From an uncultured Candidatus Saccharibacteria bacterium (lineage in GTDB: Bacteria; Patescibacteriota; Saccharimonadia; Saccharimonadales; Saccharimonadaceae): a stretch of DNA of 51,448 nucleotides. Shown here piece by piece: positions 1-9,042 of the stretch; within the stretch, counting starts at the first letter, position 1, and the number at the start of each line of letters is the position of its first letter. The position numbers and the translations under genes were made by a program. The notes beneath the pieces were generated by a model. It saw only the letters and a list, made by a program, of their open reading frames with translations. It had not been told where the DNA came from and did no database searches. The stretch lies in NCBI GenBank assembly GCA_947166895.1, contig CAMVFY010000002.1, positions 1 to 51,448 of the forward strand. Reading direction: 5' to 3'.

Positions 1-32
1 AAAAATGCCCCCTCTTAAGAGGGGGCATTTTT
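1..32. terminator. Strong bidirectional intrinsic terminator
   Basis: A perfect palindrome of the form AAAAATGCCCCC...GGGGGCATTTTT gives a GC-rich stem with A/T tracts on both sides, so it can terminate either strand. On the minus strand it is the second of two hairpins behind the orphan RNA. Confidence 0.85.
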
Positions 33-68: not shown

Positions 69-719
69 GTGAGGCAGGGTTTCCCCTGGTACTGGACGTA
101 TTCTTACCTTACTTACTTCTTCGTATGGTGTTCTGTGGCATGCGATATTGAATTGTGACGCGATGTTGCTGCTGCTATGCTGCTAATTTGCTGTTAACCC
201 ACAGGAGAGACAGATTTGGATAGATTCGCGAATTATTGACGCGAACGACCGAAACGGCAGGTGGTCCTGCGTAAAGGTGGCTGAGCCACTAGGCGCACAT
301 AGGCTTGACCTACGACTGCTGCTTTCTTAGGCACGCCTACGTGCGCCAACAGCTAGTCAGGTAACATCTCTCGATAGAAGAAACATACTCCGTTAGGAGA
401 CGGCAACCGCGGAATCTCCGCGGGAACTCGGGCCGCATCCGCAGCAGAATTTTCCGTTCGCGTGACCAGATGGTTGCAGTCTACGTTAATGAGAAAATAC
501 AAGAAGCGTATCAACATCCTAGAGCCACCCTCCTTTCTTTGGGTAAGATTTTTGTAATCAGCCCCGTTCGCAGTTCTTCGCGCGTTCGTCATGACTGATA
601 CAAACCCCAGTACTTTAACGTACGACACTCTTGGAAACCTAGATCTCCCTCAGACCTTGTGGGGGCCAGAAAGCTCGACCACATTTTGCCAGTCTGGAGC
701 CGATTCCCAATCTGTGTGT
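69..719 (-). ncRNA. Unidentified large structured noncoding RNA (about 650 nt)
   Basis: No convincing gene lies between the gatB stop and the terminators at 1-68, yet the stretch starts at a consensus promoter (727-755) and is full of perfect short hairpins: 225-243 (TCGCG/CGCGA), 257-270 (GCAGG/CCTGC), 277-289 (GTGGC/GCCAC), 292-304 with 335-347 (13 bp, one mismatch, closing a ~30-nt loop), 407-421 (CGCGGA/TCCGCG) and 651-655 with 694-698 enclosing a second stem. Near the 3' end CAGGG-GAAA-CCCTG makes a GNRA-capped hairpin. I looked for landmarks of tmRNA (tRNA-like T arm with CCA), RNase P RNA (the GGAAAGTCC and ACAGAA core elements in order), SRP RNA and rRNA and did not find them. That it is transcribed and structured is inference from promoter, hairpins and terminators; the family is unknown. 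Confidence 0.55.
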
Positions 720-726
720 AACGCCA

Positions 727-755
727 ATTATATTCCTCTGTTCCTAAGATGTCAA
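727..755 (-). promoter_or_regulatory. Perfect sigma70-type promoter of the orphan RNA
   Basis: On the minus strand TTGACA (750-755) and TATAAT (727-732) are separated by exactly 17 bp, with transcription expected to start near 719. Both hexamers match the consensus in every base, unlike nearly all protein-gene promoters here, which pairs with a highly expressed stable RNA. It sits 3 bp after the gatB stop codon. Confidence 0.85.
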
Positions 756-6339: not shown

Positions 6340-9042
6340 ATGAAAAAGAAAAAATCCGAAGTGATTTTGCCGTCAAAAAAGTCTGAAACGGCCAAATCCT
6401 CGAAAAAAACTGCGAAATCCTCGTCAAAGACTGCGAAAAACATGAGGCTCTACTCCAGTTTGGCCTACAAACATCGAGCCAAAAAAGAGGCTAATGCTCG
6501 CCAGCGGGCCGAAGAATTAGCCAAACTCCCCAAAGAGCCAGTCAAACGTTTCTTTGCGCGTCTCCACCCCAAACGTGTTTTTAAGTGGTGGTTTTCTTGG
6601 CGTGGTCAAAAAGCGATTCTCAAATTCTTTGCAGCTTGTATACTTATAGGTATTATTTTTATTGGCGGGCTCTTCCTTTATTATAAAAAGGATCTTGATC
6701 AAATCCGTCTTGATGAGATGTCTATCTCCGAAACCGTTAATACATACCTAGACCGTAACGGGGTGGTTTTGTGGCGTGATACTGGTACCGAAGACTACCG
6801 GCTAGTTGTAGACAAAGATGATATTTCCCCGTACATGTATCAGGCGACCGTCGCAATCGAGGACAAGAATTTCTACAACCATATCGGTGTAGACTTTTCA
6901 GCACTAATCCGCGCGACCTTATCGACTCTCACTGGGCACGGGGTTCAAGGCGGCTCTACCCTAACTCAACAGCTAATCAAGCAAGTATATTTTTCGGACG
7001 AAGCGCAAAGCGAAAACCGTGGTGGGCTTTCGCGTAAAATCAAGGAATTAATTCTCTCGATCGAACTAGAGCGTATGTATTCCAAGGACCAAATTATCAC
7101 CATGTATCTCAACCAGTCACCCTACGGCGGTCGTCGTAACGGGGTTGAGTCTGCCGCCAAAACTTACTTTGGCAAATCCGCCAAAGATTTAACTTTAGCC
7201 GAATCAGCACTCCTTGCTGCAATCCCAAATAATCCAGGCGTTTTGAATCCATATAATGTATACGGTAACGAAATGCTAATAGCTCGGCAACACAAAGTTT
7301 TGGACGATATGGTCTCGATGGGTTATATTTCCGAAGAAGAAGCGGCAGCGGCCAAAGAAGTCGCAATATTGGATACAATTCAACCGGAAGCTAGCCAATA
7401 TGCGGGTATTTTAGCGCCTCACTTTGTCTTGGAAGTTAAGTCTCAGCTCGAGGATAAATACGGAATTCAGACAATGCGTGCTGGTGGCTGGACAATTACC
7501 ACTACCCTTGACTACCGTGCCCAACAAGTCGCCGAAGCCGCTGTCGCCGCTGGGGCCAGCATTTTCTACGACAACAACTCCGACAACATCGCACTAGCCT
7601 CACTAGACGTGGAGACCTCGCAAGTGATTGCAATGGTTGGATCGGTAGATTTTAACAACGTTGAGTACGGTTATTATAATGCCGCTAACGCTTTGCTTGA
7701 GCCAGGTTCCACTATTAAGCCAATTCTTGACTACACCCCGCTTTTTACCCAACGTGAAGGCATTAATTACGGCCCCGGGACTGTTCTCAAAGACGAAAAC
7801 ATCGATAGCATATATTGTGCTGGCAATACTAGTGGCTGTCGTCTTCGAAATTACACCGGCAGGTTTTACGGGAATATTACCATTCGCCAGGCTCTTTCCA
7901 ACTCACTCAATATCCCGGCCGTCAAGGCCCTTTACATCAACGGCATCGACAATTCTTTGGAGATAGCTCATGCACTGGGTGATAAATCCTACTGCGAAGA
8001 CAGGTCCGGCTACGGCCTATCTATTGCTATTGGTTCCGGGTGTAACATCCGCTTGACTGAACATGCAAATGCGTATGCTTCGATCGCGCGCGGCGGTACC
8101 TATAAGGATATCACGTACGTGTTGGAGATAAAGAATAGTTCAGGTGAAGTAATAGAAAAATGGACTGATAGTGAAGGTAAGCGTGCAGTTGACAATCAAG
8201 TGGCGTACATGATCTGGGATATTTTACACGATGCAAGTGCTAGAGCGTCACTCGTTTTTGGCAGCCAATCCTATGCTTTTGGGTTTAAAGTTCCCGGCGT
8301 CGAGACCGCCTCCAAAACCGGCACCACGACTACCTCTAACGCCAATGTTACCAAAGACTCATTAATGATCAGCTTTTCGTCTGCGATTTCAACAGTAGTT
8401 TGGAATGGCCGCCACGATGGCTCTGGGCTTAAAAATTCCAATAACACCATAGTAAGACGCGTCATCAATAATTATATGGAAGGCGTACACAAAGATGTTT
8501 ATGCCGCTGATGGCAAATGGAAATCGGGCGATATGCCGGTTAAGCCAGCCGGAATTAAGACTCTTACCGTCAATGGCAAGACCGATATTTGGCCCAGTTG
8601 GTACAACGAATCTAAAAATTCCGGTGTAGTTAAGGAAACTTTAACTTTTAACCGCTATAATCACCTGTTAGCCGCTGAGTGTACTCCTGAAGCCTACAAA
8701 ATCGAGGTCGAAATTACCAAAGTGACAGATCCGATGACTGGCAACGAAGTTTACAATGTGCCGGAGCCGTACAATCGCGAGGTTAGTGATACGTGTACCT
8801 ACGTTCCGCCCACTGTTTCCATATCCACTGTTGGCAATCAAATTGTTGCTGTGATCAACAAAGGCACCTACGATATTTATGGACATACGCTCTATGTTAA
8901 CGGTGTCGAAAAAGAAGGTACTTCACTAGATCTCGCGAGCGGTGTTGTCGGTGGGTTTACTCTCGATGGTACCGAATCGTCAATCAAATTAGTCATCTCC
9001 GACACCGCTGGATATATGGCGTCAGACGAAAAGAATTTCTAG
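6340..9042 (+). CDS. Class A penicillin-binding protein (PBP1A-type transglycosylase/transpeptidase)
   Basis: Bifunctional peptidoglycan synthase: it polymerises lipid II and cross-links the stem peptides outside the membrane. The 900-aa product has a Lys/Ser/Ala-rich cytoplasmic tail (1-90), one signal-anchor helix (about 93-115), a GT51 glycosyltransferase domain with EDKNFYNH (about 174-181) and GGSTLTQQL, and a transpeptidase domain with STIK (nucleophile Ser about 457), SLN (about 522) and KTGTT (about 659), so all three catalytic boxes are intact. The C-terminal ~150 residues form a beta-rich extracytoplasmic tail with Cys. The ATG lies 7 nt after TGCTATAAT: a leaderless start. It faces murJ across the 6S candidate. 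Confidence 0.95.
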   Translation: MKKKKSEVILPSKKSETAKSSKKTAKSSSKTAKNMRLYSSLAYKHRAKKEANARQRAEELAKLPKEPVKRFFARLHPKRVFKWWFSWRGQKAILKFFAACILIGIIFIGGLFLYYKKDLDQIRLDEMSISETVNTYLDRNGVVLWRDTGTEDYRLVVDKDDISPYMYQATVAIEDKNFYNHIGVDFSALIRATLSTLTGHGVQGGSTLTQQLIKQVYFSDEAQSENRGGLSRKIKELILSIELERMYSKDQIITMYLNQSPYGGRRNGVESAAKTYFGKSAKDLTLAESALLAAIPNNPGVLNPYNVYGNEMLIARQHKVLDDMVSMGYISEEEAAAAKEVAILDTIQPEASQYAGILAPHFVLEVKSQLEDKYGIQTMRAGGWTITTTLDYRAQQVAEAAVAAGASIFYDNNSDNIALASLDVETSQVIAMVGSVDFNNVEYGYYNAANALLEPGSTIKPILDYTPLFTQREGINYGPGTVLKDENIDSIYCAGNTSGCRLRNYTGRFYGNITIRQALSNSLNIPAVKALYINGIDNSLEIAHALGDKSYCEDRSGYGLSIAIGSGCNIRLTEHANAYASIARGGTYKDITYVLEIKNSSGEVIEKWTDSEGKRAVDNQVAYMIWDILHDASARASLVFGSQSYAFGFKVPGVETASKTGTTTTSNANVTKDSLMISFSSAISTVVWNGRHDGSGLKNSNNTIVRRVINNYMEGVHKDVYAADGKWKSGDMPVKPAGIKTLTVNGKTDIWPSWYNESKNSGVVKETLTFNRYNHLLAAECTPEAYKIEVEITKVTDPMTGNEVYNVPEPYNREVSDTCTYVPPTVSISTVGNQIVAVINKGTYDIYGHTLYVNGVEKEGTSLDLASGVVGGFTLDGTESSIKLVISDTAGYMASDEKNF

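Follow-up and report, generated by a model that had tools for sequence, protein, structure and literature searches.

Arrest peptides characterized so far regulate a gene in cis. In published examples, a conserved C-terminus is carried on variable bodies, some peptides stall the ribosome with a stop codon in the A site (e.g., NSP-stop and NAP-stop), and several of the regulatory peptides have a proline beside the stop (PMC10987492). The locus described here lies at the start of contig C2 of a 0.66 Mb Saccharibacteria genome, in a stretch of 51,448 nucleotides that was analysed as a whole and is referred to as the window; the relatives used for comparison are also Saccharibacteria, many of them from ruminant guts. 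Very probably, this locus is a structured RNA that encodes a 54-amino-acid peptide, as opposed to a non-coding RNA. With arrest peptides (SecM, TnaC and the RAPP/RAPG, NSP-stop and NAP-stop groups of PMC10987492) it shares a short open reading frame (ORF), a conserved C-terminus with a proline near the end, a variable body and structured RNA after the stop, and one feature by which such peptides are recognized, a conserved C-terminus on a divergent N-terminal part, was found. It differs from them in its motif, (F)YYR[K/E]xxPx-stop, and in having no regulated gene in its transcription unit.

Like the dual-function RNAs RNAIII, SgrS and VcdRP, the element is a free-standing structured transcript of some hundred nucleotides with a small peptide inside, and two characters expected of such RNAs, a promoter and terminator of their own and an encoded small protein, were both found, the protein by comparative evidence only. 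In contrast to these RNAs, it has no known target or base-pairing region, and no relation to them was seen in Rfam. The large structured RNAs ROOL, GOLLD and OLE are similar in length and rich in hairpins, but the element has no Rfam match and encodes a peptide; the original prediction could not match it to any large ornate RNA, and no link to ROOL, GOLLD or others of that kind was found. Another structured RNA of comparable length with an internal reading frame is tmRNA, but here the frame has its own Shine-Dalgarno sequence and start codon, there is no tRNA-like domain, and ARAGORN found no tmRNA in the element. A housekeeping RNA, of which no landmarks had been seen originally, was rejected because this genome carries its tmRNA and its RNase P RNA on contig C19. 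None of the Rfam covariance models reached its gathering score in the window element, searches of the relatives' elements gave no match, and the sub-threshold matches reflect the terminator end (1-119), bar one weak lncRNA match. By analogy, the closest functional models would be an arrest-peptide leader and a dual-function RNA, and the element is not filed as a member of either class. Within the limits of the collection searched, the open literature held no similar regulatory RNA or small-protein family in Saccharibacteria and nothing on this locus.

The transcription unit beside gatB

The minus-strand unit spans position 755 to approximately 1, where the contig ends, and the predicted transcript of ~690 nt (<700 nt) runs to the terminator at 68-46 (Table 1). 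A sigma-70-type promoter begins 2 nt past gatB and is the sole 12/12 match within the first 3 kb, and relatives have a near-consensus promoter at the equivalent place. This is the consensus promoter originally predicted on the minus strand. Promoters matching both boxes had also been called few, and the whole window has just one further 12/12 match, at 26489-26461 on the minus strand in the transmembrane end of a 331-amino-acid gene. Because this second match lies inside a coding gene, a perfect promoter match alone is weak evidence. For the window unit, the promoter and terminator are consensus matches only; their layout recurs in relatives. In addition, the two predicted terminators and the GNRA-capped stem, here with a GAAA loop, were located, and of the predicted bounds, 69-755, the promoter edge stands while the unit itself continues past the other edge to approximately 1. 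Sequence comparison supports an independent transcription unit made up of a strong promoter, a structured leader of ~200 nt, a strong Shine-Dalgarno sequence, the 54-codon ORF, a structured tail of ~300 nt and a terminator.

The window contig stops just before the expected fusA, which is absent from the draft genome. On contig C19 of the same genome (G000), the RNase P RNA is cut by the contig end at 14190, with only model positions 67-218 matched. Both the missing fusA at the start of C2 and the cut RNase P RNA look like assembly gaps.

Table 1. Features of the element and its upstream neighbour, in window coordinates.
Feature	Positions	Strand	Basis or detail
gatB, upstream neighbour anchoring the syntenic site	758-2170	minus	gatB present in 35/36 relatives
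Promoter	727-755	minus	TTGACA (755-750), 17-nt spacer, TATAAT (732-727); 12/12 consensus match
Structured leader	518-720	minus	predicted transcription start ~720, inferred from the -10 box; conserved part 625-515
Leader hairpin just 5' of the Shine-Dalgarno sequence	551-604	minus	TTTGTA.TCAG (604-595) with CTGA.T.TACAAA (561-551)
Shine-Dalgarno sequence AGAAAGGAGG within conserved motif ATCTTACCCAAAGAAAGGAGG	529-538	minus	read from sequence
54-codon ORF MLIRFLYFLINVDCNHLVTRTENSAADAARVPAEIPRLPSPNGVCFFYREMLPD	353-517	minus	ATG 517-515, TAG stop 355-353; preceded by AGAAAGGAGG
Hairpin directly after the stop codon, 13-bp stem	292-347	minus	347-335 with 304-292; relatives have a hairpin there too
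Small hairpin GTGGC-TCA-GCCAC	277-289	minus	identical hairpin in L047, L049, L055
GAAA-capped hairpin CAGGG-GAAA-CCCTG near the 3' end	75-88	minus	read from sequence
Intrinsic terminator	46-68	minus	consensus match
Bidirectional terminator at the end of the contig, a perfect inverted repeat with T runs in both directions	1-32		read from sequence

Selection on the peptide and on the RNA

Across five homolog pairs, the ORF has 38/24/76 substitutions at codon positions 1/2/3 (chi-square 31.5, p 1.5e-7, a value that is somewhat optimistic because L049 was used in two of the five pairs), and the same count in the control flanks is even (5' p 0.63, 3' p 0.41). All three indels within the ORF are 3 nt long, and the 5' flank has 11 indels, none of a length divisible by three. 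The nearest relative of the window peptide, L195, is 36% identical over 55 residues (E 5e-6 as a single comparison). A profile of the last ten residues, built without the window, scored the window ORF at 16.2 bits, compared to 14.9 for the best decoy in a set of 50,054 distinct ORF ends from non-family sequences. Third codon positions are free in the conserved C-terminus (F)YYR[K/E]xxPx-stop, the N-terminus is conserved too (FLxFP), and proline at the penultimate position occurs in 0 of 41 window genes. The combined Shine-Dalgarno and C-terminus pattern, which is partly circular as it was derived from the same loci, occurs in 40 ORFs (20 distinct) in ~1.4 Mb, all within the element. The peptide body varies in sequence and length among relatives, and a leave-one-out profile HMM of the full-length peptide failed to recover the window ORF, the central part being too divergent. 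The codon-position counts and the 3-nt indels show that the ORF is evolving as coding DNA in close relatives.

Searches of the peptide against Pfam, PHROG, NCBIfam and PADLOC gave no family match, and a PHROG match for the peptide of one relative (E 0.16) was set aside as noise. AlphaFold predicted no confident fold (pLDDT 55.6), with a helix at residues 2-22 at low confidence. A preference for TAG as the stop was discarded, as 18 of the 41 window genes likewise end in TAG, and so was stop-codon read-through, as relatives share no open frame past the stop.

To describe the leader, a covariance model of the region up to the start codon (R1) was built from eight relatives with the window excluded. 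In the 51-kb window it found one strong site, at 625-515 on the minus strand (48.8 bits, E 6.8e-9), which ends on the ATG of the ORF, and across 174 congeners it found a single copy in each of 11 genomes, all at already-known gatB-fusA loci. The Shine-Dalgarno sequence is complementary to the 3' end of the genus 16S rRNA (ATCCTTCTCAAGAAAGGAG, found near contig ends and read as 16S by inference). In a nucleotide search of 60 relatives, the single 26-nt match turned out to be the G026 copy of the leader motif, located at the syntenic site.

The leader stem is kept with different letters, TTTGTA-TCAG/CTGA-T-TACAAA in the window and TTTCG-CTAG/CTAG-T-CGAAA in L193, and the hairpin is also formed, from different sequence, by L193/L195 and the six elements of cluster A (L128, L049, L057, L151, L055 and L153). 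Cluster A also contains covarying hairpins (helices 6 and 7) at the place matching the GAAA-capped hairpin, and the counterpart of the small hairpin at 277-289 carries a compensatory change in L057/L151 (helix 4). In total, the cluster A structure has 56 pairs in eight helices, 97.3% of them standard, with both-side changes in 14 pairs, a number reached by 0/500 shuffles; the structure slid by 1-3 columns gives at most 4. As this structure was drawn from the same six sequences, which are few and related, these counts are good support and not formal proof, and the window itself is too distant from cluster A to enter them. The predicted fold of the element has a minimum free energy of -229.8 kcal/mol and exceeds shuffled sequences in stability (z -2.9 against only 20 shuffles). 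The long stem after the stop codon, previously described as 13 bp with one mismatch, was found with its length intact, but the supposed mismatch is a G-U pair alongside 12 Watson-Crick pairs. By these comparisons, the hairpins appear to be conserved in their own right. A long-range pairing between the Shine-Dalgarno sequence and the tail is plausible by eye in some relatives, shows no covariation and is not claimed.

The original prediction is partly supported by these results. It was right in pointing to a predicted transcript (here ~690 nt) that stands by itself between a strong promoter and a terminator; the structure of this RNA is conserved and belongs to no Rfam family, with leader homologues at the gatB-fusA site and hairpins that covary in relatives. 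It had also been read as an orphan, non-coding RNA in ~650 nt without a credible gene; instead, the C-terminus profile, the codon-position pattern and the homology to L195 place the ORF at 517-353 in a coding family, and about 20 relatives have the same gatB-fusA site occupied.

Distribution within the genus

The region was fetched via gatB in relatives and then via fusA in 120 further genome stretches. Among 146 distinct intervals upstream of fusA, about 20 have the same layout and many congeners are without the element. The common layout consists of a near-consensus promoter, a structured leader, a AAGAAAGGAGG-like Shine-Dalgarno sequence, an ORF of 52-68 codons (15 once), a hairpin at or directly after the stop, a structured tail and a terminator, usually followed by fusA. 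In most relatives fusA is on the same strand, 232-542 nt past the ORF stop and behind the terminator, and in the intervals that were read it appears to have a separate promoter; four relatives carry another gene between the element and fusA. Each genome that has the element carries a single copy, always at this site. Presence is clustered on the gatB tree yet patchy (at least 8 changes, compared to 16 for shuffled labels). An order-wide profile search gave strong matches within the same genus only, with none convincing outside it, and the element was not found in phage and viral collections. A search with a single relative's peptide reached just two close species because the body diverges too fast, and the flanks of the ORF evolve fast as well. 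This distribution supports a family apparently confined to the gatB-fusA interval of one Saccharibacteria genus. In sum, the element is a structured mRNA limited to one genus, patchily present and in one copy per genome, and the small peptide it encodes has an end like that of arrest peptides.

L018/L050 (L050 ~7012-7400) have a miniature element made up of a promoter, a short leader, a 15-codon ORF (MKFTRFYYRRIMAPG-stop) and a terminator, followed by fusA, and this ORF retains the conserved C-terminal end. L071 and L020 are apparently decayed copies, L020 retaining FRYLKIIPT with the stop out of frame.

The best overall explanation, which we favor tentatively, is a structured mRNA unit with a peptide that would act in cis as a regulatory nascent chain. 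Its likeliest mechanism, offered provisionally and by analogy with published arrest peptides, is ribosome arrest at termination, a ranking that follows from the fixed C-terminus on a variable body, the 15-codon form and the hairpin right after the stop. The (F)YYR[K/E]xxPx end would occupy the tunnel while the stop codon sits in the A site; in that state the ribosome would slow or arrest, and the arrested ribosome would cover the hairpin directly after the stop, leading to refolding of the remaining RNA. Candidate outputs of this refolding are fusA expression by read-through, RNA stability or activity in trans. The element may act directly on fusA, but this idea is weakened by the terminator, the apparent promoter of fusA itself and the four relatives with an intervening gene. 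The low-confidence predicted fold would be compatible with a nascent-chain role, as weak evidence, and the conserved N-terminus FLxFP is unexplained by arrest alone. It is improbable, but conceivable, that this RNA functions in the state in which a ribosome sits on the RNA's own stop codon, which would make it a novel class of arrest element lacking a cis gene, or a sensor of translation status beside the EF-G gene, particular to these episymbionts. With protein-level and RNA-level selection packed into <700 nt and natural variants down to 15 codons, the element is a ready test case for stop-codon arrest in a reduced genome, and it cautions against taking a lack of long ORFs as proof that a region is non-coding.

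An ordinary small-protein gene, whose peptide would work after release (through partner binding or export) and whose folded untranslated regions would merely stabilize the mRNA, fits the coding selection and the conservation of the N-terminus along with the C-terminus. We consider it rather unlikely, as the body varies freely and shrinks to 15 codons, the peptide has neither a confident fold nor a family match, and the RNA hairpins are conserved separately. A dual-function RNA, whose structured parts would target other RNAs in trans, like RNAIII and SgrS, with the peptide as a second product, would account for the promoter and terminator, the covarying structure and the internal peptide, and CTCCTTTCT stretches in cluster A tails could pair with Shine-Dalgarno sequences; it is nonetheless unlikely, with such stretches not evident in the window's own tail and flanks that evolve fast. 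Covariation and the decayed or shortened copies in L020 and L071, which have no clear ORF, would suit a purely non-coding structured RNA with an incidental ORF, the view taken originally, but a codon-position bias limited to the ORF, 3-nt indels and a C-terminus conserved with free third positions make this very improbable. A type I toxin mRNA, suggested by the long structured untranslated regions around a short ORF and the hydrophobic N-terminus of the window copy, is just as doubtful, given that a consensus scan found no promoter-like site on the plus strand in 1-757, the N-terminus is short and not membrane-like in most relatives, and each genome has one copy at a single fixed site.

Other RNAs and genes in the interval

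Further predicted RNAs lie between gatB and fusA. L201 and L241 have two related RNAs in which 16-codon ORFs, identified by eye, follow AAAGAAAGGGGG (MPRLCYFIPRLTGLPP-stop and MSYLCYFMSGPTGLPP-stop), both ending in Pro-Pro-stop. Other strongly promoted RNAs with no clear ORF are found in L090, L159 and L172 (also L089, L091 and L094); in RNAs of this type a 5' purine-rich stretch (e.g., AAAAGAGGAGAAC) is complementary to a pyrimidine-rich stretch before the terminator, GTTCTCCTCTTTT. In L047, L049, L055, L057 and L174, a gene of ~150 amino acids follows gatB, ahead of the element or fusA, and presumably resembles small multidrug export proteins. Finally, L052, L053 and L245 (and L068) have a separately promoted gene of ~190-260 amino acids and unknown family between the element and fusA, which shares GMPVRxFLxWxxG...EWSGIP.
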